Assembly: GCA_016208115.1 (NCBI GenBank)
Contig: JACQYR010000035.1
Span: 1 to 32,232, forward strand
DNA from: Desulfarculus sp.
GTDB taxonomy: Bacteria; Desulfobacterota; Desulfarculia; Desulfarculales; Desulfarculaceae
Direction: 5' to 3'
Length of the DNA: 32,232 nucleotides
Positions 6,951 to 30,232 of the stretch are shown piece by piece. The notes beneath the pieces were generated by a model, which worked only from the letters and a program-made list of their open reading frames with translations, made no database searches and was not told where the DNA came from. Made by a program: the position numbers and the translations under genes. The number at the start of each line of letters is the position of its first letter. The stretch's first letter is position 1.

Positions 6951-8675
6951 ATGAAAAGCATCTTGGCCGTCTTGTTGCTGACGATAGCCTCGCTCCTCTT
7001 CCCTTCATCTCCCGGCTGGGGTTATTCCCAGGCGAGGCCCGGGGCTGATTTTGACCTGCTGACCATCAGCGGACAGGTGCGGACCCCCCAGGGCAAGGGG
7101 GTGAGGGAGGCCCAAGTCAGGTTCTTCCTGGAGGGCCAGGCCCTGGAGGCCGAAACCGAGACCTCGGCCAAGGGCACCTTCCGGGCCGAGCTGCGCCTGC
7201 CCCGGGGCAGCCTGCCCAGCGCCCGCCTGGAGGTGCAGATCGAAAAGCCCTCCTTCACCACCCTCCGCCACGCCGTGGAGCGCCTGCTGCCAGCCCCGGA
7301 GGCCCCCGGCCAGCCGGCCGGCTTCCTGGCCCACCAGCCCCTGGTGCTGGAGCGCGCCGTCACCCCGGCCCTGTGGATCGCCAGCCTGGTGCTCCTGGGG
7401 GTCTACGTGCTCATCGCCCTGGAGCTGATGCACCGCACCCTGGCCGCCCTGCTGGGCGGTTCCCTGCTCTTGGCCATCAGCTACACCGCCGGCACCTTCG
7501 ATCCCGGCTATTTCATCCTCTCCTACCATGACGCCATGGCGGCCATTGACCTCAACGTGGTCTTCCTGCTCATGGCCATGATGATTATCGTGGGGGTGAT
7601 GAAGCGCACCGGCGTGTTCCAGTGGATGGCCTACAAGTCCTTCCAGATGGCCCGGGGCAATGTCCCGGTCCTGGCCGCCCTGCTCATGGTCCTCACCGCC
7701 CTGGCTTCGGCCTTTTTGGACAACGTCACCACCATGCTCTTAATCATCCCGGTGACCGTGGAGATCGCGCTGACCCTCAAGATCAACCCCCTGGCCCTCT
7801 TGATGCCCCAGGTCTTCGCCTCCAACGTGGGCGGCACCGCCACCCTGATCGGCGACCCGCCCAACATCATGATCGGCTCCTTCGCCAAGCTGTCCTTCCT
7901 GGACTTCGTCAGCAACCTGGGCCTGGTCTGCCTGATCTGCCTGGGGCTCACCGTGGTCTACTACCTCTTCTGGTACCGCCGCGACTACCAGCGCGCCCAG
8001 GTGGAGGACGTGCCTCGCATGATCGCCCACCTGCGCCAGGCCTTCGCCATCACCGACGCCCGCCTGCTGACCTACAGCCTGGTCATCCTGGGCACGGTCA
8101 TCGCCATGTTCATCATGCACGGCACCCTGCACATGGAGCCCTCCATCGCCGCCCTGATCGGGGCGTCGGCCCTGGTGGCCATCTCGCGGGTGGACATCGT
8201 GGAGATGCTGGAGCGGGAAGTGGAGTGGCCCACCCTGATCTTTTTCATGTTCCTGTTCGTGGTGGTGCCCGGCGCCGAGGAGACGGGGCTGATCCAGATG
8301 ATCGCCGATCAGGCCCGCGACCTGAGCCGGGGCTCCCTGCCCCTGGCCATCGTCATCGTGCTGTGGGTCTCGGCCATCGCCAGCGCCTTCATAGACAACA
8401 TCCCCTTCACCGCCACCATGCTGCCCATCGTGGCCTACCTCAACCAGGTCACCCCCGGGGCCGAGAGCGGCATCCTGTGGTGGTCCCTGGCCCTGGGCGC
8501 CTGCCTGGGCGGCAACGGCACCATGATCGGCGCATCCGCCAACGTGGTCACCGTGGGCCTGGCCGAGAAGGCCGGTTATCCCATCAGCTTCCTGCAATAC
8601 ATGAAGGCCGCCTTCCCGCCCATGCTGCTGACCCTGCTGGTGTGCACGGCCTGGCTGCTGTGGGTGGCCCCCTAA
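6951..8675 (+). CDS. ArsB/NhaD (SLC13 / ion transporter superfamily) permease with secreted N-terminal beta domain
   Basis: Start chosen at MKSILAVLLLTIASLLFPSS (signal peptide); N-terminal 'ISGQVRTPQGKGVREAQVRFFLEGQ' carboxypeptidase-regulatory-like segment; permease motifs 'SAFLDNVTTMLLIIPVTVEIA' and 'NVGGTATLIGDPPNIMIGS'. Confidence 0.87.
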   Translation: MKSILAVLLLTIASLLFPSSPGWGYSQARPGADFDLLTISGQVRTPQGKGVREAQVRFFLEGQALEAETETSAKGTFRAELRLPRGSLPSARLEVQIEKPSFTTLRHAVERLLPAPEAPGQPAGFLAHQPLVLERAVTPALWIASLVLLGVYVLIALELMHRTLAALLGGSLLLAISYTAGTFDPGYFILSYHDAMAAIDLNVVFLLMAMMIIVGVMKRTGVFQWMAYKSFQMARGNVPVLAALLMVLTALASAFLDNVTTMLLIIPVTVEIALTLKINPLALLMPQVFASNVGGTATLIGDPPNIMIGSFAKLSFLDFVSNLGLVCLICLGLTVVYYLFWYRRDYQRAQVEDVPRMIAHLRQAFAITDARLLTYSLVILGTVIAMFIMHGTLHMEPSIAALIGASALVAISRVDIVEMLEREVEWPTLIFFMFLFVVVPGAEETGLIQMIADQARDLSRGSLPLAIVIVLWVSAIASAFIDNIPFTATMLPIVAYLNQVTPGAESGILWWSLALGACLGGNGTMIGASANVVTVGLAEKAGYPISFLQYMKAAFPPMLLTLLVCTAWLLWVAP

Positions 8676-10555: not shown

Positions 10556-11588
<1,033 letters not shown>

Positions 11589-11597
11589 AAAGGAGAT

Positions 11598-11957
11598 ATG
11601 CACATGATTATGGTGCGCGCCATCGTAAGACCCGAGAAGGCCGACGAGGTCCTGGCCGCGCTCATGGAGGCGGGGTACCCCTCGGTGACCAAGTACTCGG
11701 TGGCCGGCCGCGGCAAGCAGCGCGGCATCAAGATCGGGGAAGTCACCTACGACGAGATACCCAAGGCCATGCTCATGAGCGTCATCAAGGCCGAGGACCA
11801 GGACTTCGTCATCGGCGTGATCGTGAAGGCCGCCCGCTCGGGCAAGGAGGGCCACTTCGGCGACGGCAAGATTTTCGTCAGCCAGGTGGAGGACGTCTAC
11901 ACCATCAGCAGCGGCGTGCGCGAGACCGCGGCCCAGTCCAAGGAGGCCCCGGCATGA
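11598..11957 (+). CDS. nifI1: PII-family nitrogenase regulator NifI1
   Basis: 119 aa PII-like (MVRAIVRPEKADEVLAALMEAGYPSVTKYSVAGRGKQRGIKIG); located between nifH and nifD; ORF-track start at 11598. Confidence 0.95.
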   Translation: MHMIMVRAIVRPEKADEVLAALMEAGYPSVTKYSVAGRGKQRGIKIGEVTYDEIPKAMLMSVIKAEDQDFVIGVIVKAARSGKEGHFGDGKIFVSQVEDVYTISSGVRETAAQSKEAPA

Positions 11958-12328
11958 AGGAAGTAATCGCCGTGGTGCGCATGAACATGATGAACCAGAA
12001 CAAGAAGGCCTTGACCGAGGCGGGCATCGCCGCCTTCTTCGCCCACGAGGTGCTGGGCCGGGGCAAGGGCCTGGTCAACGACTTGGTGCTGGAGGGGGCC
12101 AAGGCCGGCCATGAGGAGGCCGTGGCCCTCTTGGGCGAGAAGGGCAAGCTCTACCCCAAGCGGCTCATCAGCGTGGTGGTGCCCGACAAGGAGGTGCCGG
12201 CCCTGGTCAAGACGCTGATTGCGGTCAACCAGACCGGCCAGCCAGGCGACGGCAAGATATTCGTGATGCCAGTGGACAACGCGGTGCGCGTGCGCACCGG
12301 CGAAAAGGGCCCCAAGGCCATCGCCTAA
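11954..12328 (+). CDS. nifI2: PII-family nitrogenase regulator NifI2
   Basis: 124 aa; MKEVIAVVRMNMMNQNKKALTEAGIAAFFAHEVLGRGKG; ATGA overlap with nifI1. Confidence 0.95.
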   Translation: MKEVIAVVRMNMMNQNKKALTEAGIAAFFAHEVLGRGKGLVNDLVLEGAKAGHEEAVALLGEKGKLYPKRLISVVVPDKEVPALVKTLIAVNQTGQPGDGKIFVMPVDNAVRVRTGEKGPKAIA

Positions 12329-12347
12329 CCAGTAGGAGGACAACCAC

Positions 12348-13988
12348 ATGGCGACCAAGGAAAACGGCCCGCCCGCTTGGGACCCCGCCGGACTCAAGGA
12401 GGAAATGCTGCGGCAGTATCCTCCCAAGGTGGCCCGCAAGCGCGCCAAGCAGATGGTCATCAACCAGGACCAGCCCAGCGGCGCGCCCGAGATCATGGCC
12501 AACGTGCGCACCATTCCGGGCATCATCACCATGCGCGGCTGCACCTACGCCGGGTGCAAGGGCGTCATCATGGGCCCCACCCGCGACATCGTCAACATCA
12601 CCCACGGCCCCATAGGCTGCGGCTTCTACTCCTGGCTCACCCGCCGCAATCAGACCGACGCCTCCGCCCCCGGGGCCGAGAACTACATGACTTACTCCTT
12701 CTCCACCGACATGCAGGACAAGGACATCATCTTCGGCGGCGAGAAGAAGCTGGAGCAGGCCATAAGCGAGGCCTACGACCTGTTCCACCCCAAGGCCATC
12801 GCCGTCTTCGCCACCTGCCCGGTGGGGCTCATCGGCGACGACATCCACGCCGTGGCCGCGCGCATGAAGAAGCAGTTCGGCGACTGCAACGTCTTCGCCT
12901 TCTCCTGCGAGGGCTACAAGGGCGTGTCGCAGTCGGCCGGGCACCACATCGCCAACAACCAGGTCTTCCGCCACGTGGTGGGCAACAATGATGAGCCCAA
13001 GCCGGGCAAGTTCAAGATTTGCCTGTTGGGCGAGTACAACATCGGCGGCGACGGCTTCGAGATTGACCGCGTGCTGAACAAGTGCGGCATCACCAACGTG
13101 GCCACCTTCTCGGGCAACTCGTCCTACGACCAGTTCGCCTCGGCCCACACTAGCGACCTCAACTGCGTCATGTGCCACCGCTCCATCAACTACGTGGCCG
13201 ACATGCTGGAGACCAAGTACGGCGTGCCCTGGATCAAGGTCAACTTCATCGGGGCGGGGGCCACGGCCAAGAGCCTGCGCAAGATCGCCCAGTACTTTGA
13301 TGACCCGGAGTTGACGGCCCGCGTGGAGGCGGTGATCGCCGAGGAGATGCCGGCCGTGGAGGCGGTGATCGCCGAGGTGCGGCCGCGCACCCAGGGCAAG
13401 ACGGCCGTGCTCTTCGTGGGCGGCCCACGGGCCCACCACTACCAGGAGCTGTTCAAGGAGATGGGCATGAGGACCGTCTCCGCCGGCTACGAGTTCGCCC
13501 ACCGCGACGACTACGAGGGGCGCCAGGTCATCCCCAACCTCACCGTGGACGCCGACAGCCGCAACATCGAGGAGCTGGAGGTGGAGCCCGATCCCCAGCG
13601 CTACCGGGCGCGCAAGGCCCCCGAGAAGATCGGCGAGCTGGCCCAATCCGGCCTGCCCATGAAGGACTATGAGGGGCTCATCCCCGACATGGAGCCCGGC
13701 TCCATGATCATTGACGACTTGAACCAGTACGAGGCCGAAAAGCTGGTGGAGATGGTCAAGCCCGACATCTTCTGCGCGGGCATCAAGGAGAAGTTCTCGG
13801 TGCAGAAGATGGGCGTGCCCCTGAAGCAACTGCACAGCTACGACTCCGGCGGACCCTATGCCGGCTTCAAGGGGGCCGTGAACTTCTACCGCGAGATAGA
13901 CCGCCTGGTAAACAGCAAGGTCTGGGGCTATCTCAAGGCCCCCTGGCAGGAGAACCCGGAACTCTCGGCCACCTACGTCTGGGAGTAA
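12348..13988 (+). CDS. nifD: Nitrogenase molybdenum-iron protein alpha chain
   Basis: 546 aa; conserved FeMo-co environment motifs CEGYKGVSQSAGHH, CHRSINY, QLHSYDSGGPY. Confidence 0.97.
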   Translation: MATKENGPPAWDPAGLKEEMLRQYPPKVARKRAKQMVINQDQPSGAPEIMANVRTIPGIITMRGCTYAGCKGVIMGPTRDIVNITHGPIGCGFYSWLTRRNQTDASAPGAENYMTYSFSTDMQDKDIIFGGEKKLEQAISEAYDLFHPKAIAVFATCPVGLIGDDIHAVAARMKKQFGDCNVFAFSCEGYKGVSQSAGHHIANNQVFRHVVGNNDEPKPGKFKICLLGEYNIGGDGFEIDRVLNKCGITNVATFSGNSSYDQFASAHTSDLNCVMCHRSINYVADMLETKYGVPWIKVNFIGAGATAKSLRKIAQYFDDPELTARVEAVIAEEMPAVEAVIAEVRPRTQGKTAVLFVGGPRAHHYQELFKEMGMRTVSAGYEFAHRDDYEGRQVIPNLTVDADSRNIEELEVEPDPQRYRARKAPEKIGELAQSGLPMKDYEGLIPDMEPGSMIIDDLNQYEAEKLVEMVKPDIFCAGIKEKFSVQKMGVPLKQLHSYDSGGPYAGFKGAVNFYREIDRLVNSKVWGYLKAPWQENPELSATYVWE

Positions 13989-14008
13989 ATCCAGGAGAGG
14001 ACGGCGAC

Positions 14009-15388
14009 ATGCTACTGAGACACACACCCAAGGAAATCGGCGAGCGCGGGGCGCTGACCATCAACCCGGCCAAGACCTGCCAGCCCATCGGGGCCATGTA
14101 CGCGGCCTTGGGCATCCACGGCTGCCTGCCCCACAGCCACGGCTCCCAGGGCTGCTGCGCCTATCACCGCAGCACGCTGACCCGGCACTACAAGGAGCCC
14201 ATCAGCGCCGCCACCAGCTCCTTCACCGAGGGCTCCTCGGTCTTCGGCGGCCAGGCCAACCTGTTGCAGGCCATCGAGACCATCTTCACGGTCTACGACC
14301 CCGAGGTCATCGCCGTGCACACCACCTGCCTGTCGGAGACCATCGGTGACGACCTGCCGCAGATCATAGACAAGGCCGACAAGGCCGGCAAGATTCCCCC
14401 GGGCCGGCGGGTCATCTACGCCAACACCCCCAGCTACGTGGGCAGCCACGTCACGGGCTTCTCCAACATGGTCAAGGGCATGGCCGCCACGGCCAACTGC
14501 ACCGGCAAGAAGAACGGCAAGGTCAACGTCATCCCCGGCTGGGTGGAGCCGGCGGACATGGAGGAGATCAAGCGCCTGGCCGCGCTTCTGGAGGTGGAGA
14601 TCATCCTGTTCCCCGACACCGCCGGCGTGCTTAACGGCCCCCTGGACGGCCAGTTTCAGATGTACCCCCCGGGCGGCGTGACCATGGAGGAACTGAAGTC
14701 CACGGGCGACTCCACCGGCACCTTGGCCCTGGGCGAGTGGTGCTCGGCCGAGGCGGCCCGCTTGCTGGACACCAGGTGCAAGGTGCCTTGCCGGGTGCTG
14801 GAGATGCCCTATGGCCTCAAGGCCACCGACCGCTTCGTGGACGCCTTGCGCACCATCGCCGGGGTGAGCGTGGGCGATGAGATCAACCACGAGCGCGGCC
14901 AGTTGGTGGACATGATCTCCGACATGCACCAGTACTTCTACCACAAGCAGGTGGCCCTGGCCGGCGACCCCGACCAGCTCATCGCCCTGTGCGAGTTCCT
15001 GGTCTCCCTGGACATGTGGCCCCGGCACGTGGTCACCGGCACCCCGGGCCGGGCCTTCGAGGAGCGGATCAAGCAGATCACCGCTGGCCTGCCCTACCAG
15101 GTCAACGTCAAGGCCGGGGCTGGGGCCGACTTGTTCCTCTTCCATCAGTGGATCAAGAACCAGCCCGTGGACCTCTTGATAGGCAACACCTACCTCAAGT
15201 ACATCGCCCGCGACGAGGACATACCGCTGGTGCGCTTCGGCTTTCCCATCCTGGACCGCGTGGGGCACCAGTACTTCCCCAGCGTGGGCTACAAGGGCGG
15301 CCTGCGCCTGCTGGAGAAAATCCTAGGCGCTCTGCTGGACCGCAAGGACCGCGACGACCCCGAGCAAAGCTTTGAACTGGTCATGTAA
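14009..15388 (+). CDS. nifK: Nitrogenase molybdenum-iron protein beta chain
   Basis: 459 aa; INPAKTCQPIGAMYAALGIHGCLPHSHGSQGCCAYHR; THTTCLSETIGDD-like motif. Confidence 0.97.
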   Translation: MLLRHTPKEIGERGALTINPAKTCQPIGAMYAALGIHGCLPHSHGSQGCCAYHRSTLTRHYKEPISAATSSFTEGSSVFGGQANLLQAIETIFTVYDPEVIAVHTTCLSETIGDDLPQIIDKADKAGKIPPGRRVIYANTPSYVGSHVTGFSNMVKGMAATANCTGKKNGKVNVIPGWVEPADMEEIKRLAALLEVEIILFPDTAGVLNGPLDGQFQMYPPGGVTMEELKSTGDSTGTLALGEWCSAEAARLLDTRCKVPCRVLEMPYGLKATDRFVDALRTIAGVSVGDEINHERGQLVDMISDMHQYFYHKQVALAGDPDQLIALCEFLVSLDMWPRHVVTGTPGRAFEERIKQITAGLPYQVNVKAGAGADLFLFHQWIKNQPVDLLIGNTYLKYIARDEDIPLVRFGFPILDRVGHQYFPSVGYKGGLRLLEKILGALLDRKDRDDPEQSFELVM

Positions 15389-15400
15389 AGGAGACGAGAC

Positions 15401-15706
15401 ATGGAAAAGCCCGATTACACCATCCTGGTCTGCGGCAGCTTTCGCGCCGGCAAGGACTCGCAAGGCATCTGCCACAAGAAGGGTTCCCTGGGGCTCTTGC
15501 CCTACCTGGAGGAGGAGCTGAGCAGCCGGGGGCTGTCGGCGGCGGTGGCCGGCACCACCTGCCTGAAGCTCTGCGACCGCGGCCCGGCCCTGGTGGTGCA
15601 ACCCCAGAACTGGTGGTACGGCGGCGTGGACAGCGAGGAAGTGGTGGACGAGATACTGGACGCCCTGGCCGAGAGCCGGCCGGCCAAGGCCTATCTCTTG
15701 GATTAG
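15401..15706 (+). CDS. Thioredoxin-like [2Fe-2S] ferredoxin (nif-associated)
   Basis: 101 aa; ILVCGSFRAGKDSQGICHKKG and TTCLKLCDRGP provide four Cys in the Clostridium pasteurianum-type [2Fe-2S] ferredoxin pattern; between nifK and nifE. Confidence 0.88.
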   Translation: MEKPDYTILVCGSFRAGKDSQGICHKKGSLGLLPYLEEELSSRGLSAAVAGTTCLKLCDRGPALVVQPQNWWYGGVDSEEVVDEILDALAESRPAKAYLLD

Positions 15707-15737
15707 ACCACCGGCGTCGCCAGACGCGGAGGCAACC

Positions 15738-17108
15738 ATGGCTAGCGTGATCTTCGAGGAGCGGCGGGACCAAATCGTCACCAAGGGCGAGGCGCCGTTT
15801 AGGATCAGTTGCGATAAGGAAAGCCTGGCCGGCGCGGTCAGCCAGCGGGCCTGCGTGTTCTGCGGATCGCGGGTGGTGCTCTACCCCATCGCCGACGCCC
15901 TGCACCTGGTACACGGCCCCATCGGCTGCGCGGCCTACACCTGGGACATCCGCGGCGCTTTGTCCTCGGGGCCGGAGCTGCACCGGCTCTCCTTTTCCAC
16001 CGACCTACGCGAGCAGGACGTGATCTTCGGCGGCGAGAAAAAGCTGGAGCGCGCCCTGATCGAGCTCATTGACCGGCACTCCCCCAACGCGGCCTTTGTC
16101 TACTCCACCTGCATCGTGGGGCTGATCGGCGACGACCTGGCCGCGGTGTGCAAGCGGGTGCAGCAGGCCAAGGGCATCCCGGTGATCCCGGTGATGAGCG
16201 AGGGCTTCAAGGGCAACAAGCGCGCTGGCTACGCCGCGGCCTGCCGGGCCATGTTCTCGCTGGTGGGTACTGGCGACACCGCCGGCATCCCGACCCACAG
16301 CGTCAATCTGCTAGGCGACTTCAACCTGGCCGGCGAGATATGGATCATCCGCGACTACCTGGAGCGCATGGGCGTGGGGGTGGTGGCGGGCATAACCGGC
16401 GACGGCCGCGTGGCCGATCTGCAACGCGCCCATGGCGCGGGCCTCAACGTGGTGCAGTGCTCGGGCTCCACCATGGAGCTGGCCAAGATGATGCAGGAAG
16501 CCTTTGGCGTGCCCTTCATCCGCGCCTCCTACTTTGGCGTGGACGACATGGCGGGGGCACTTTACGACATCGCCGCGCACTTCGGCGAGCCGGCGTTGAT
16601 GGAGCGCGCCAAGCAGGTGGTGCGCGAGGAGTTGGCCGTGGTCTATCCCCAGATCATGGAGGCCCGGCGCCGGCTGGCCGGCAAGAAGGTGGCCATCTAC
16701 GTGGGCGGGGCCTTCAAGGCCTTCAGCCTGGTCAAGTCCTTCCGGCTTTTGGGCATGCAGACCGTGCTGGTGGGCTCCCAGACCGGCACAGAGGAAGACT
16801 ACCAGGAGCTGGCGGCCATCACCGACCCGGGCACGGTCATCGTGGACGACGCCAACCCCCTGGAGCTTATGAGCATCCTCAAGGAAAAGGGCGCCGACGT
16901 CTTCGTGGGCGGGGTAAAGGAACGGCCCATCGCTTACAAGCTGGGCATCGGCTTCTGCGACCACAACCACGAGCGCAAGCTGGCCCTGGAGGGCTTCGTG
17001 GGCATAATCAACTTCGCCCGCGAGATCGAGCGCACGGTCCTTAGCCCGGTGTGGAACTTCGTGCCACGCATCGGCGGCGCCCCCCTGGGGGCCAGGAGGG
17101 CGGCATGA
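15738..17108 (+). CDS. nifE: FeMo-cofactor biosynthesis scaffold NifE
   Basis: 456 aa; QRACVFCGSRVVLYPIADALHLVHGPIGCAAYTWDIRG; order after nifK/fdx and before nifN. Confidence 0.95.
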   Translation: MASVIFEERRDQIVTKGEAPFRISCDKESLAGAVSQRACVFCGSRVVLYPIADALHLVHGPIGCAAYTWDIRGALSSGPELHRLSFSTDLREQDVIFGGEKKLERALIELIDRHSPNAAFVYSTCIVGLIGDDLAAVCKRVQQAKGIPVIPVMSEGFKGNKRAGYAAACRAMFSLVGTGDTAGIPTHSVNLLGDFNLAGEIWIIRDYLERMGVGVVAGITGDGRVADLQRAHGAGLNVVQCSGSTMELAKMMQEAFGVPFIRASYFGVDDMAGALYDIAAHFGEPALMERAKQVVREELAVVYPQIMEARRRLAGKKVAIYVGGAFKAFSLVKSFRLLGMQTVLVGSQTGTEEDYQELAAITDPGTVIVDDANPLELMSILKEKGADVFVGGVKERPIAYKLGIGFCDHNHERKLALEGFVGIINFAREIERTVLSPVWNFVPRIGGAPLGARRAA

Positions 17109-18475
17109 GCAAGGCGCCGGCCTACGTCTCCACCACCAACGCCTGCAAGGCCTGCATGCCCTTGGGCGCTTGCCTGGCCTTCAAGGGCGTGGAGGGCTGC
17201 GTGCCCTTCCTGCACGGCTCCCAGGGCTGCGCCACCTACATGCGGCGTTATCTCATCAGTCATTACCGCGAGCCCGTGGACATCGCCTCGTCATCCCTGG
17301 GCGAGAAGCAGGCCATCTACGGCGGCGGCCCCAACCTCAAGCAGGGCCTGGTCAACGTCATGAACAAGTACCAGGCCCGGGCCATCGGCGTGGCCACCAC
17401 CTGCCTCACCGAGACCATCGGCGACGACGTGCCCGGCCTGGTGCGCGAGTTCCTGGGCCAGGCCAAGGTGGAGGGCGGCGCGGCGAGCGTGCCGCCGGTG
17501 ATCGCCGTGAGCACCCCCAGTTTCGGCGGCACCCACCTGCAGGGCTTTCACCGGGCGGTGGCCGCCCTGGTGGCGCAACTGGCCACCACGGCTGGCCCAT
17601 CCAACGGCCAAGTAAACCTGCTGCCCGGCCTGGTCAGCCCGGCCGACGCCCGCTACCTCAAGGAGGTGTTGGCCGACTTCGGCCTCACTGGCGTGCTGCT
17701 GCCCGACATCAGTCTGACCCTGGACGGCGTGGCCAAGGCCGAGTACGAGCTGATCCCCGAGGGGGGCACCCCCTTGCGCGACATCGCCGCCATGGGCTCA
17801 GCGGCGGCCACCATCCAATTGGGCTGCTTCGCCATGCCCAACCCCAGCGCCGGCCAGATATTGGCCAGCCGCTTCGGGGTGCCCTTGGTTAGCCTGAATC
17901 TGCCCCTGGGGCTCAGGGCCTCCGATGCCCTGTTCCAATGCCTGGAAAGGCACAGCGGACGGCCGACCCCCGAGCGTCACGCCCGCGAGCGCGGCCAACT
18001 CCTGGACGCCTTCGTGGACGGCCACAAGTACCTGGCCGGGGTCAAGGCCGTGGTCTACGGCGAGGAGGACCTGGCGCTGGGGCTGTGCTCCTTCCTGGCC
18101 GAGGTGGGCGTGCAGGTGGTGCTGGCGGCCAGCGGCGGCGAGTCCCCTGGCCTGGCCCAGGCCGTGGCCGAGGTCTCGGACGGTCTGGCGCCACAGGCCC
18201 CCCTGGTCAGGAGCGGCGTGGATTTCCACCAGATCGGCGAGCAGGCCCGCGCGCTCAAGCCCGACCTGCTCATTGGCAATTCCAAGGGCCAGACCCTGGC
18301 GCGCGAGCTGCGCGTGCCCCTAGTGCGCGTGGGCTTTCCCATCCACGACCGCTTCGGGGCTGGCCGCATCCTTACCCTGGGCTACCGCGGGGCTTTGGCC
18401 CTGCTGGATGGCCTCATCAACACGTTGCTGGAAAAGCGCCAGGCCGACAATCCGGTGGGCTACGGCTATCTATAA
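17105..18475 (+). CDS. nifN: FeMo-cofactor biosynthesis protein NifN
   Basis: 456 aa from MSKAPAYVSTTNACKACMPLGACLAFKGVEGCVPFLHGSQGC; ATGA overlap with nifE; ORF-track start 17051 extends too far upstream. Confidence 0.94.
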   Translation: MSKAPAYVSTTNACKACMPLGACLAFKGVEGCVPFLHGSQGCATYMRRYLISHYREPVDIASSSLGEKQAIYGGGPNLKQGLVNVMNKYQARAIGVATTCLTETIGDDVPGLVREFLGQAKVEGGAASVPPVIAVSTPSFGGTHLQGFHRAVAALVAQLATTAGPSNGQVNLLPGLVSPADARYLKEVLADFGLTGVLLPDISLTLDGVAKAEYELIPEGGTPLRDIAAMGSAAATIQLGCFAMPNPSAGQILASRFGVPLVSLNLPLGLRASDALFQCLERHSGRPTPERHARERGQLLDAFVDGHKYLAGVKAVVYGEEDLALGLCSFLAEVGVQVVLAASGGESPGLAQAVAEVSDGLAPQAPLVRSGVDFHQIGEQARALKPDLLIGNSKGQTLARELRVPLVRVGFPIHDRFGAGRILTLGYRGALALLDGLINTLLEKRQADNPVGYGYL

Positions 18476-18512
18476 CCAATCCACGGACCGGCAATATTAG
18501 GAAGGTGGCATC

Positions 18513-19772
18513 ATGAGCGCCAATCCCCACGCAAACCTTCACCCCTGTTTCAACGCCGAGGTCAAGGGTTCCTGCGGCCGCGTGCACCTGCCGGTGGCCC
18601 CCTTGTGCAACCTGCGCTGCAACTACTGCAACCGCAAGTACGACTGCGCCAACGAGAGCCGCCCCGGCGTCACCTCGGGTCTGCTCACGCCCCATCAGGC
18701 CGTGGAGTATCTAGCGCGGGTGCTGGAGCAGGAGCCGCGCATCACCGTGGCCGGCATCGCCGGGCCGGGCGATCCCCTGGCCAATCCCCAGGCCACCCTG
18801 CAAACCCTACGCCTGGTGCGCCAGCGCTTCCCAGAGCTATTGATCTGCCTGTCCAGCAACGGCCTGGCCCTGCCCGACCACCTGGAAGAGGTCGCGGCCC
18901 TGGCCAGCCACGTCACCCTGACCATCAACGCCGTGGACCCCGAGGTGGGCGCGCGCATCTACGCCTGGGCGCGCCAGGGCAAGGTGGTCTACCGGGGCCG
19001 CGCGGCCGCCGAACTCTTGCTGGAGCGCCAGATGACGGCCCTGGCAGGTCTAAAGGAACGCGGGGTCATGGTCAAGGTCAACACCATCATCATCCCTGGG
19101 GTCAACGACCAGCACGTGGCCCAGGTGGCGGCGCGGGTGTCCGGCCTGGGCGCCGACCTGCACAACCTGATGCCCCTCTACCCCAATACCGATACGCCCT
19201 TCGCCGAGGTGCCCGAACCCGGTGCCCAGCAGATGGATGCCCTGCGCCAGATTTGCGCCGGCCATCTGCCCCAGATGAGCCACTGCACCCGCTGCCGCGC
19301 CGACGCCGTGGGCCTGTTGGGCCAGGACCGTTCTCCCCAGATGCGCGGTTGCCTGACCTCCTGCGGACAACTGCCCGAGCCGGCGCCGGAGGGCCGGCCC
19401 TACGTGGCCGTGGCCAGCCGCGAGGGAGTGCTGGTCAACCTGCACCTGGGCCAGGCCGAGCGCTTCCAGATTTGGGGCCCAACTCCTGACGGCTATGCCC
19501 TGATTGAGGAGCGCCAGGCCCCGGCGCCGGGCGGCGGCGTGGACCGCTGGTACCGTCTGGCTGAGTTGCTGAAGGATTGCCGCGCGGTGCTGGTCAGCGG
19601 GATCGGCGAGACGCCTCGGCTGGCCCTGGAGGAATCAGGCGTCACCACCTTGGAGATGGAGGGCTTCATCGAGCAGGGTCTCAGGACGGTTTACGAGGGG
19701 CTTGATGCCTCGTTGCTCAGGGTGAGGAAGCTCAAGCCCTGCCAGGGCGGCGCCGGCGGGTCCTGCCACTGA
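18513..19772 (+). CDS. nifB: NifB radical SAM FeMo-cofactor biosynthesis protein with C-terminal NifX-like domain
   Basis: 419 aa; HPCFNAEVKGSCGRVHLPVAPLCNLRCNYCNRKYDC radical SAM motif; C-terminal YVAVASREGVLVNLHLGQAERFQIW. Confidence 0.97.
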   Translation: MSANPHANLHPCFNAEVKGSCGRVHLPVAPLCNLRCNYCNRKYDCANESRPGVTSGLLTPHQAVEYLARVLEQEPRITVAGIAGPGDPLANPQATLQTLRLVRQRFPELLICLSSNGLALPDHLEEVAALASHVTLTINAVDPEVGARIYAWARQGKVVYRGRAAAELLLERQMTALAGLKERGVMVKVNTIIIPGVNDQHVAQVAARVSGLGADLHNLMPLYPNTDTPFAEVPEPGAQQMDALRQICAGHLPQMSHCTRCRADAVGLLGQDRSPQMRGCLTSCGQLPEPAPEGRPYVAVASREGVLVNLHLGQAERFQIWGPTPDGYALIEERQAPAPGGGVDRWYRLAELLKDCRAVLVSGIGETPRLALEESGVTTLEMEGFIEQGLRTVYEGLDASLLRVRKLKPCQGGAGGSCH

Positions 19773-24896: not shown

Positions 24897-25386
24897 TCAA
24901 ACGCTCAAGTGCTGGCTGACCATCTCTTGGCTCAGCGCCTCGATGGCCCCCGAGGTGACCACCCTCCCCTTGTCCATGAGGCAAAAGCTCTCGGCCACCC
25001 GGCGGGCAAAGGCCAGCTTCTGCTCCACCAACAAAACCCCGATGCCGGCCTCGCGGGTCAAGCGCCTGATGATCTCGCCGATCTCGCGCACGATGTTGGG
25101 CTGGATGCCCTCGGTGGGCTCGTCCAGGATCAACAGCCGAGGCTCGCACGCCAGGGCGCGGCCTATGGCCAGTTGCTGCTGCTGACCGCCGGAGAGGTCG
25201 CCGCCCCGGCGGTGCAGCATGCTCTTTAGCACCGGGAAAAGCTCGAAGATGGCCGGCGGGATGCCCGCCCCGGACCGGAGCCCCACCCGCAGGTTCTCCT
25301 CCACGCTGAGCAGAGGGAATATCTCGCGGCCCTGGGGAACGTAACCGATACCCAGGCGGGCGCGGTCCGAGGCCGCGCAAGCATGG
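24897..25386 (-). pseudogene. urtE: Urea ABC transporter ATP-binding protein UrtE, 5'-truncated (Walker A region missing)
   Basis: Conserved part RLGIGYVPQGREIFPLLSVEENL...LSGGQQQQLAIGRAL...LLILDEPTEGIQPNIV is present, but no GxxGxGKT exists between it and the urtD stop (25387-25389); ATG at 25384 is out of frame with the UrtE body. Confidence 0.8.
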
Positions 25387-26187
25387 TTATTGGTCCCCCA
25401 GATAGACCTCGATCACCTTGGGGTGGCTCTGCACTTGGTCCATGTCCCCGTCGGCGATGACGCGCCCCTCGTGCAGGACCGTGACCCGCTGGGCGATGGA
25501 GTGCACGAACTCCATGTCGTGCTCCACCACCACCACGGTGCGGCTGGCGGCCAGGGAGTGCAAGAGGCCGATGGTGTGCTCGATCTCGGCCGGGGTCATG
25601 CCGGCCACCGGTTCGTCCAAGAGGAGCATCTGCGGCTCCTGGGCCAAGAGCATGCCGATCTCTAGCCACTGCTTCTGGCCGTGGGCCAGGCCCCCGGCCA
25701 GGCGGCCGGCCTGATCACCGAGCCCGATGATCCCCAGCACCTCCTGGATGCGCTCCCGCTCTTCCGGCCGCAGGGTGGCGAACAGGGAGTGCCGCAAACC
25801 CTTGTCGCACTTCAGCGCCATTTCCAGGTTTTCGAAGACGCTGTGGTTCTCGAAGACCGTGGGCCTCTGGAACTTGCGGCCTATGCCCCCCCGGGCGATC
25901 TGGGCCTCCGAGAGCTGGGAGATGCTGCCCAGGGGCTTGTAGAAGACCGTGCCCGCGTCGGCCCTGGTCTTGCCGGTGATGACGTCCAAGAGGGTGGTCT
26001 TGCCAGCGCCGTTGGGGCCGATGATGCAGTGGATGCCGCCGTCCTGGATGTTCAGGTTCAGGTTGTCCAGGGCCTGGAAGCCGTCGAAGCTGACGCTAAC
26101 CGCCTGCACGTAGAGGATGGGGAAGCGCCGAGCCGTCAAGGACACCCGCCCTGCCTCGTCCTGGACCGCCGTGGGTGAAGCGCTCAT
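25387..26187 (-). CDS. urtD: Urea ABC transporter ATP-binding protein UrtD
   Basis: 266 aa from MSASPTAVQDEAG; GPNGAGKT, HGQKQWLEIGMLLAQEPQMLLLDEPVAGMT. Confidence 0.95.
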   Translation of the reverse strand: MSASPTAVQDEAGRVSLTARRFPILYVQAVSVSFDGFQALDNLNLNIQDGGIHCIIGPNGAGKTTLLDVITGKTRADAGTVFYKPLGSISQLSEAQIARGGIGRKFQRPTVFENHSVFENLEMALKCDKGLRHSLFATLRPEERERIQEVLGIIGLGDQAGRLAGGLAHGQKQWLEIGMLLAQEPQMLLLDEPVAGMTPAEIEHTIGLLHSLAASRTVVVVEHDMEFVHSIAQRVTVLHEGRVIADGDMDQVQSHPKVIEVYLGDQ

Positions 26188-27299
26188 CGCGTCACCTCCG
26201 TGGTATCGCCGCGCCTGGCCCGGGGTAGCAGGTCCTTGAGGCCGGCCAGGCCCCGAGGCAGGAACATGGTGGTGCCGATGAACAGGGCGGCCAGGAAGAA
26301 CAGCCACAGCTCCGGCCAGGCCACCGTGAACCAGCTCTTGGCGCCGTTGACCAAGAAGGCCCCCAAGACGCCGCCCACCAGGCTGCCCCGTCCGCCCACC
26401 GCCACCCAGATAGCCATCTCGATGGAGTTTGCCGGGTGCAGCTCGCTGGGGTTGATGATGCCCACCTGGGGCACGTACAGCGCCCCGGCGATGCCGCACA
26501 AAAAGGCCGAGAAGGTCCACACGAAGAGCTTGTAGCGCAGCACGTCATAGCCCAGGAAGAGCAGGCGGCTCTCGCCGTCGCGGATGGCGCGCAACAGGCG
26601 CCCCAGCTTGCTGGTGACGATATAGCGGCAGGCCAGGTAGCTCAGGAGCAGCACCAGGGCCGTGGTCAAATACAACCCCAGCTTGGTGGCGGGCGTGGAC
26701 AGCGAAAAGCCCAGCAAGCGCTTGAAGTCGGTGAGCCCGTTGTTGCCGCCCAGTCCGGTCTCGTTGCGGAAGAAGAGCAGCATCAGGGCAAAGGTGGTGG
26801 CCTGGGTGATGATGGAGAAGTACACGCCCTTGATGCGCGAGCGGAAGGCGAAGAACCCGAAGACCAGGGCCGCGCACCCCGGCAGCAACAGGATCACCAG
26901 GGCCGCCAGCCAGAACTGGTCCAGGCCCTGCCAGAACCAGGGCAGCTCCTGCCAGTTGAGAAAGACCATGAAGTCGGGCAACTGGCTGCGGTAGTGGCCC
27001 TCGCCGGACATGACCCGCATCAGGTGCATGCCCATGGCATAGCCGCCCAGGGCGAAGAACACGCCGTGCCCCAGGCTTAAGATGCCCGTGAACCCCCAGA
27101 CCATGTCCATGGCCAGGGCCACCAGGGCGTAGCACAGAAACTTGCCCAACAGGGGCACCAGGTAGTCGGGCAGACGCAGGGGCAGCCCCGCCGGCACCGC
27201 CAGGTTGAGCGCCGGCACCACCACCAGGGCCACCAGCGCCGCCAGGGCAAAAGCCAGCCAGGCCCTGCGGGAGTGCATTGCCATCAGGCGCGCCAGCAT
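26184..27299 (-). CDS. urtC: Urea ABC transporter permease UrtC
   Basis: 371 aa; MDMVWGFTGILSLGHGVFFALGGYAMGMHLMR; ETGLGGNNGLTDF. Confidence 0.95.
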   Translation of the reverse strand: MLARLMAMHSRRAWLAFALAALVALVVVPALNLAVPAGLPLRLPDYLVPLLGKFLCYALVALAMDMVWGFTGILSLGHGVFFALGGYAMGMHLMRVMSGEGHYRSQLPDFMVFLNWQELPWFWQGLDQFWLAALVILLLPGCAALVFGFFAFRSRIKGVYFSIITQATTFALMLLFFRNETGLGGNNGLTDFKRLLGFSLSTPATKLGLYLTTALVLLLSYLACRYIVTSKLGRLLRAIRDGESRLLFLGYDVLRYKLFVWTFSAFLCGIAGALYVPQVGIINPSELHPANSIEMAIWVAVGGRGSLVGGVLGAFLVNGAKSWFTVAWPELWLFFLAALFIGTTMFLPRGLAGLKDLLPRARRGDTTEVTR

Positions 27300-27302
27300 G
27301 AC

Positions 27303-28863
27303 CTAGCCCTCCGCCAGGCGGCCCTTGAGGGCGAAGATGCCCTGGGGACGCTTCTGTATGAAGAGGATGACAAAGACCAGGATGGCGATCTTGCCCAGCA
27401 CCGCCCCGGAGAAGGGCTCCAATATCTTGTTGATGACCCCCAGGCCTAGGGAGCCCCACACCGTGCCGGCCAACTTACCCACTCCCCCCAGCACCACGGT
27501 CATGAAGCAGTCCACGATGTAGGCCTGACCCAGCTCTGGCCCCACGTTGCCGATCTGGGACAAGGCCAGGCCGCCCAGGCCGGCGATGCCGCAGCCCAGG
27601 CCGAAGGTCCACATGTCCACCCGCGAGGCCTTGACCCCCATGGCCGAGGCCATGCCCCGGTTCTGGGTCACGGCTCGCACGCGTAGGCCCAGGGGCGTGC
27701 GGTTCAAGATGAACCACACCAGGAGCACCGCCAGGGCCGCGAAGCCGATGATGGCCAGACGGTTGTAGGTAAGCAATAGGCCCTGGCCCACCTGCCAGCC
27801 GCCGGCCAGCCAGGAGAAGCGTCTCCAGGGGCCGGCCCACCAGGTGGCGGATCAGCCCGCGCTCCAGGGCCACGCCCACCAGGGCCGGCAAGGCGAAGCA
27901 GACCGGCAGGGCGGCCAGGGGGTACCAGTCCAGGGCTCCCGGCCACCAGGCCCGGAAGACATTCTGGGTGACGTAGGCCGCGTAGGCCCCCAGCATCAGC
28001 ATCTCGCCGTGGGCCATGTTGATGACGCCCATGAGCCCGAAGGTGATGGCCAGGCCCAGGGAGGCCAAGAGGAGCACGCTGGCCAGGCTCAGGCCGTAGA
28101 ACAGGCACTGCACGATGTCGGCGGGCAAGGTGTGAAAATAGATTATCTGCATGCCCCAGCGCGCGGCCTGGCGCACCTCGGGGTCGGGCTCCAGGTACTG
28201 GCCCTGGGGGTCCTTCTGGGTCAGGGGCTTGAGGCGCTCCAGGTAGTTGGAGTCGCCGGAGGCGCCCAGGGTCTGGATGGCCGCCAGGCGGCGGGCCTTG
28301 TCCAGGCTCTTGAGGTCGGCCAGCGAGACCACCAGCCCCAGGACCTGGCGCACCGCCGGGTCGTTCTCCTTGTCCAGGGCCGCGGCCAAGAGGCCGGCCT
28401 GCTCCGGGCCGGGGGGCTCCTCGGCCAGGCGGCGGGCCGCCGTCAGACGGTGGGCCGGGTCGGGGGAATAGAGACGCAGCCGGGCCATCACCGGCTCCAG
28501 GGAGCGGCGCACCAGGTTGTTGACCAGGGGCGCGCGCAGATCGCCTTCCAAGGCCACCGTCCCGCCCGTGAATGCGTCCAGACCTTGGGCCTGGCCTTCC
28601 TCGACGATCAACGGCCGGCCCTCATGGTCCAGGCGCAGCCGGCCGGCCTGCAGGGCCTCCAGCAGGGGCAGGGCCTTGGGGTCGCCCAGGCGGCCCAATT
28701 CCTCGATGGCCGCGATCACCTCGGCGCGGCTGGCCCCGCCCAGGCCGGCGGCGGCCTGACGCAGTTCTTGGCCGCCGGCCACGGCCACTGGCGAGGGCAG
28801 CAGGAAGAGCCAGGCCAGCAGGGCCAGCAGGAGCAGGTGGTATGGTGAACGCGCCGGGTACAT
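27303..28863 (-). pseudogene. urtB: Urea ABC transporter permease UrtB, frameshifted with apparent internal deletion
   Basis: N-terminal part in one frame (MYPARSP...LERGLIRHLVGRPLETLL) and C-terminal part in another (SWLAGGWQVGQGLLLTYNRLAIIGF...); junction near 27808-27825; segment normally between them is absent. Confidence 0.8.
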
Positions 28864-28924: not shown

Positions 28925-30232
28925 TTACTTATACTTGGGCGCCGTGCAGTTGCCGCAGACCCAGGGATAGGTCCAGTCGGCCACCTTCTTGGCGCTGTCG
29001 GGGATAAAGGGGCTCCAGGCATCGGCCCGGATGGGTCCCTTGGTTTGCCAGACGATCTCGAACTGGCCGTCCGCCTTCACCTCGCCGATGAGCATCGGCT
29101 TGTGCAGGTGGTGGTTCTTGGCGTCCATGACGATCTCGTAGCCGCAGGGGGCCTTGACCTTCTGGTTGGCCACGGCCTGACGCACGGCGCCCACCTCGGT
29201 GGTGCCGGCCTGCAAGACGGCCTGGGCCCACATCTTGATGCCGATGTAGGTGGCTTCCATGGGGTCGTTGGTCACCCGCTTGTCGCCGCCGGGCAGGTTA
29301 TGCTCCTTGACATAGGCCTTCCACTTGGCGATGAAGGCCTGGTTCTCGGGGTTCTTGATGGACATGAAGTAGTTCCAAGCCGCCAGGTGTCCCACCAGGG
29401 GCTTGGTGTCTATGCCGCGCAGCTCCTCCTCGCCCACCGAGAAGGCGATGACCGGGATGTCGGAGGCCTTGAGGCCCTGGTTGGCCAGCTCCTTGTAGAA
29501 GGGCACGTTGGAGTCGCCGTTGATGGTGGAGATGACCGCCGTGCGCTTGCCCACGGCGAACTTCTTGACGTTGGCCACGATGGTCTGATAGTCGGCGTGA
29601 CCAAAGGGGGTGTAGGTCTCCATGATGTCGGCTTCGGCCACCTGCTTGGTTTGCAGATAGGCGCGCAGGATCTTGTTGGTGGTGCGGGGATAGACATAGT
29701 CAGTGCCCAAGAGCACGAAGCGCTTGGCCTCGCCGCCGTCCTTGCTCATCAGGTAATCCACGGCGGGGATGGCCTGTTGGTTGGGGGCGGCGCCGGTGTA
29801 GAAGACGTTTAGCGAGCACTCCTCGCCCTCGTACTGCACGGGGTAGAACAACAGGCCGTTGAGTTCCTCGAAGACCGGCAGCACCGACTTGCGCGAAACC
29901 GAGGTCCAGCAGCCGAAGGTCACGGCCACCTTGTGCTTCTCGATCAGCTCGCGGGCCTTTTCGGCGAACAGCGGCCAGTTGGAGGCCGGGTCCACCACCA
30001 CGGGCTCCAGTTTTTTGCCCAAGAGGCCGCCGCCCTTGTTGATCTCCTCTATGGTCATCAGGGCCACGTCCTTGAGCGAGGTCTCGCTGATGGCCATGGT
30101 GCCAGACAGCGAGTGCAGGATGCCCACCTTGATGGTCTCGGCGGCCTTGGCCGCCCCCACCAAGGGGCCGCCCAGGGCTAGGGCCAATAGCAGCAGACTC
30201 ACTCCCAATGATCGCCACGCAATTCTTCTCAT
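28925..30232 (-). CDS. urtA: Urea ABC transporter substrate-binding protein UrtA
   Basis: 435 aa with signal peptide; ETIKVGILHSLSGTMAISETSLKD; FGCWTSVSRKSVLPVFEELNGLLFYPVQYEGEECS. Confidence 0.97.
   Translation of the reverse strand: MRRIAWRSLGVSLLLLALALGGPLVGAAKAAETIKVGILHSLSGTMAISETSLKDVALMTIEEINKGGGLLGKKLEPVVVDPASNWPLFAEKARELIEKHKVAVTFGCWTSVSRKSVLPVFEELNGLLFYPVQYEGEECSLNVFYTGAAPNQQAIPAVDYLMSKDGGEAKRFVLLGTDYVYPRTTNKILRAYLQTKQVAEADIMETYTPFGHADYQTIVANVKKFAVGKRTAVISTINGDSNVPFYKELANQGLKASDIPVIAFSVGEEELRGIDTKPLVGHLAAWNYFMSIKNPENQAFIAKWKAYVKEHNLPGGDKRVTNDPMEATYIGIKMWAQAVLQAGTTEVGAVRQAVANQKVKAPCGYEIVMDAKNHHLHKPMLIGEVKADGQFEIVWQTKGPIRADAWSPFIPDSAKKVADWTYPWVCGNCTAPKYK

Follow-up and report, generated by a model that had tools for sequence, protein, structure and literature searches.

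The urea-transporter gene urtB is interrupted in the stretch of Desulfarculus sp. DNA analysed here (32,232 nucleotides; hereafter the window). Judged by sequence comparison, the interruption is very likely a local assembly error or scaffold join, the gene being intact in the organism. The draft genome to which the window belongs, as contig 17, comprises 291 contigs and 3.99 Mb; its estimated completeness is 85.9%, compared to 99% for the congeneric genome G002. The draft carries runs of N of 1–100 bases, whose variable size shows that it was scaffolded. Genes made incorrect by local misassembly or faulty scaffolding are a documented problem of metagenome-assembled genomes (MAGs) (PMC7111523). 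Those cases likewise entail sequence lost at contig joins, which leaves genes in publicly available drafts incomplete or wrong. Unlike them, the putative error in the window was recognised by comparison with a congener and not by read support. Short reads would have failed to bridge a point in urtB, and two contig ends would have been abutted with the loss of the 83 bp between them. The assembler may have done so by direct joining of contig ends or by collapse of a scaffold gap. The urtB and urtE of the organism would then most likely be intact, encoding normal components of UrtABCDE, the urea ABC transporter.

The 83-bp gap in urtB

The minus strand of 27303–28863 is urtB, and it is collinear with the gene of its closest relatives save for one clean gap, at 27816/27817. 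The gap measures exactly 83 bp (27 codons and two bases), which are held by two genomes of the same genus with an intact operon, G002 (a Desulfarculus MAG; loci L039 and L010) and G001 (L040 and L011). In BLASTN against the closest relatives, minus-strand bases 1–1047 and 1048–1561 of the window's urtB both aligned without loss, and 83 reference bases of L039/L010 lay between the two pieces. The missing residues, from the comparison with the intact relatives, are CTWGISLLIIQAVRLIFGAQNVEVANP, plus two bases. The N-terminal frame runs on the minus strand from 28863 down to about 27820 and ends '...LIRHLVGRPLETLL'; this first frame reads up to '...RHLVGRPLETLL' and is thereafter out of frame. A few bases further on the C-terminal frame opens 'SWLAGGWQVGQGLLLTYNRL', in a different frame, the correct C-terminal frame opening 'SWLAGGWQV...'. 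The features of the region are collected in Table 1.

Table 1. Positions of the urtB and urtE pieces, their junctions and the intact neighbouring genes in the window.
Feature	Position	Strand	Evidence
urtB N-terminal part (signal peptide, N-terminal extension, first permease part), ATG to '...GRPLET' in frame	27820..28863	-	90.3% nt identity to L039; TIGR03409 positions 2-96
urtB junction, 83 bp absent relative to relatives	27816..27817	-	segment present in 104/104 spanning relatives
urtB C-terminal part, shifted frame, 'SWLAGG...' to stop	27303..27815	-	93.6% nt identity to L039; TIGR03409 positions 126-291; dN/dS 0.058 vs G002
urtE junction, 196 bp absent, same kind as in urtB	25375..25376	-	comparison with G002:C18
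urtE remnant beyond the 196-bp gap; aligns collinearly with the remainder of UrtE	24897..25375	-	TIGR03410 positions 76-230; dN/dS 0.10
urtA, intact neighbour	28925..30232	-	TIGR03407 574.7 bits; dN/dS 0.06
urtC, intact neighbour	26184..27299	-	TIGR03408 443 bits; dN/dS 0.09

A preliminary description of this DNA had placed the two UrtB frames within a few nucleotides of one another, which both the frames and BLASTN bear out. It had proposed that about 30 residues between the flanking motifs were lost to a deletion of roughly 90 bp whose length is not divisible by three. The segment is indeed missing and 83 leaves a remainder of two on division by three, but the residues number 27 and not 30, and the size is 83 bp and not 90. 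It was right that a single-base indel would not suffice, 83 bp being absent. Comparison with the intact relatives located the 27 missing residues and rules out a pure frameshift.

The NCBIfam profile for UrtB (TIGR03409, 291 positions; cut-off 250.3 bits) gave a consistent picture. No continuous one-frame match above the cut-off was found in the window's urtB; it matched in two pieces of 128.3 and 216.7 bits, the N-terminal one ending at positions 96–99 and the C-terminal one starting at 125–126, with positions of about 97–125 uncovered. The intact relative L039 (JACRDC010000009.1, from the Desulfarculus MAG) matched continuously over positions 2–291 with 402.4 bits. Its gene order is that of the window, the N-terminal extension is common to both genes, and it forms one open frame of 546 amino acids that includes the 27-residue segment, whereas the window's urtB is without the 83 bp. 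Orthology is supported by sequence and by operon context (urtABCDE adjoining urease): nucleotide identity to L039 is 90–94% over both halves, synteny with contig G002:C18 is retained, urtA and urtC score above their cut-offs, and UrtE was assigned by best match. A second intact urtB was not found in the assembly, the other LivH-family matches being weaker paralogues. The 83-bp segment was not found elsewhere in the assembly either, where only short chance matches appeared. A search for a second genome of the window's species returned only the congeners G001–G005.

At least 26 of the 27 missing residues are kept in every one of the 104 relatives that span the site, a retention far beyond chance, and natural variation of the segment is thereby ruled out. 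The junction is blunt, with a microhomology of 0–2 bp. Its flanks match G002 at 37/40 and 39/40 bases and therefore there is no local chimerism at this point. A deletion between direct repeats was also rejected, as the relatives have no repeat pair at the urtB breakpoints and clean junctions show 0–3 bp of microhomology. Urt​B has no other frame-breaking indel; paired one-base indels near 28403/28409 restore the frame. The adjacency of the two frames, both conserved, could be taken for programmed recoding, by frameshifting or translational bypassing, that fuses them into one protein. No recoding could restore 27 residues that the DNA does not encode and that 104/104 relatives have, and the gene of the relatives is a single open frame. 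It is refuted as the source of the missing segment, and we consider it vanishingly improbable as an account of the break.

Selection on the urt genes and the second gap in urtE

Positions 8638–32227 of the window are collinear with G002:C18, with small indels only, except for two clean gaps, that in urtB and another in urtE. The latter removes 196 bp relative to G002 at 25375/25376, comprising the start of the gene with its Walker A motif (GRNGVGKTT). Viewed alone, the two gaps would resemble decay of the urea transporter. The pieces of both genes are under ordinary purifying selection, and neither half of urtB shows faster decay. Against G002, dN/dS is 0.058 for the C-terminal part of urtB and 0.10 for the urtE remnant, compared to 0.06–0.17 for urtA, urtC, ureC and the nif genes. 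The value for the N-terminal part of urtB is 0.28, and it is higher still, 0.42, in the intact pair G002–G001: this part of UrtB is fast-evolving across the family. Neither relaxed selection nor further lesions were seen in the urtB remains by dN/dS and inspection of indels. The genes urtA, urtC and urtD are conserved, as are the two urease genes that were checked (ureC and ureD).

These observations bear on the possibility that the urea transporter of this strain was inactivated by a real loss of the 83 bp from urtB in the very recent past, perhaps along with the 196 bp from urtE, leaving two pseudogenes that have yet to drift. The clean urtB junction and its well-matched flanks agree with such an event, and a very recent loss would not alter dN/dS. 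That both gaps of the window lie within the urt operon might point to the loss of one pathway, but this operon accounts for roughly a quarter of the stretch that was aligned. The conservation of urtA, urtC, urtD, ureC and ureD argues against it, as does the frequency of similar gaps, roughly one in every 8 kb, with sole-copy essential genes also hit (below). We regard a real urtB deletion as unlikely. That the urtB and urtE lesions are both real and very recent, in a nitrogen-fixing, urease-bearing lineage member now losing urea uptake, is quite unlikely.

The urease and urea-transport operons are adjoined by a nif cluster (window 10746–19772) that is conserved with G002. It comprises nifH, two PII-like genes, nifD, nifK, nifE/nifN-like genes and a nifB-like radical SAM gene.

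Clean gaps across the draft and in essential genes

Approximately 1.0 Mb of the window's genome was compared with 0.78 Mb of G002, of which about 174 kb aligned. Clean gaps 60 bp or longer numbered 22 on the side of the window's genome and 2 on that of G002 (sign test, p = 3.6e-5), in a two-genome comparison whose polarity is clear from family conservation for urtB, urtE, IF-2 and RpoC. Their density in the window's genome is about one per 8 kb, with two inside the window, and their sizes range from 67 to 575 bp. Gap lengths leave remainders of 0, 1 and 2 on division by three in 9, 8 and 5 cases, and the breakpoints are mostly blunt, with a microhomology mostly of 0–3 bp (random mean 0.85). 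Neither selection on reading frame nor deletion mediated by repeats is therefore indicated.

Essential genes are among those affected. IF-2, present as a sole copy, is missing 28 residues, the SAK motif of G5 among them. The stretch at about 1160–1261 of L229 (G000:C65) carries this 28-codon gap and, just before it, some 28 residues at which similarity to the congener G002 breaks off sharply, although the flanks are near identical; this pattern suggests a chimeric contig tip. RpoC is missing 45 residues of its core, in frame (G000:C99, about 8554; L248 position about 2993), and a second rpoC copy was not found in the window's genome. Losses of such kind in IF-2 and RpoC are expected to be lethal to any cell. 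The genes rpoB and alaS are intact in the same genome. Three others are uninformative on internal gaps: valS sits at the beginning of a contig, gyrA was recovered over its first 115 positions only, and no dnaE match was as strong as that of the main copy in G002.

The same class of gap thus recurs across the draft, whatever the frame or the essentiality of the gene. Because similar gaps occur about every 8,000 bases, even in essential genes, the urtB break can almost certainly be put down to faulty assembly, and a single gap in this draft is weak as biological evidence. The preliminary description had implied a urtB gene that is defective in the living organism. With gaps draft-wide, essential genes affected and no relaxed selection in urtB, such a real loss is unsupported, and an assembly artefact is much more likely. 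A mixed population was also considered, with urtB intact in most cells, a deletion in a minority and the minor path taken by the assembler. The assembly does appear to be a population draft, but dozens of loci, essential genes among them, would need the same explanation, and we hold this to be very improbable. Under the preferred reading of an assembly error, clean gaps probably also add to the low completeness of the 4-Mb draft. Apparent pseudogenes in it should not be taken as biology, and are untrustworthy because clean internal gaps of about 60–600 bp occur roughly every 8 kb.

On G000:C35, genes for a 3-hydroxyacyl-CoA dehydrogenase and a LivH-family permease have clean gaps too, with sizes of 97 and 150 bp (L139, positions 11105 and 11910). 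The same locus holds, at 19153–19240, a roughly 90-bp repeat that is dispersed over many G002 contigs. Half of it matches both strands in a palindrome-like manner, and it is perhaps a REP/MITE-like element.
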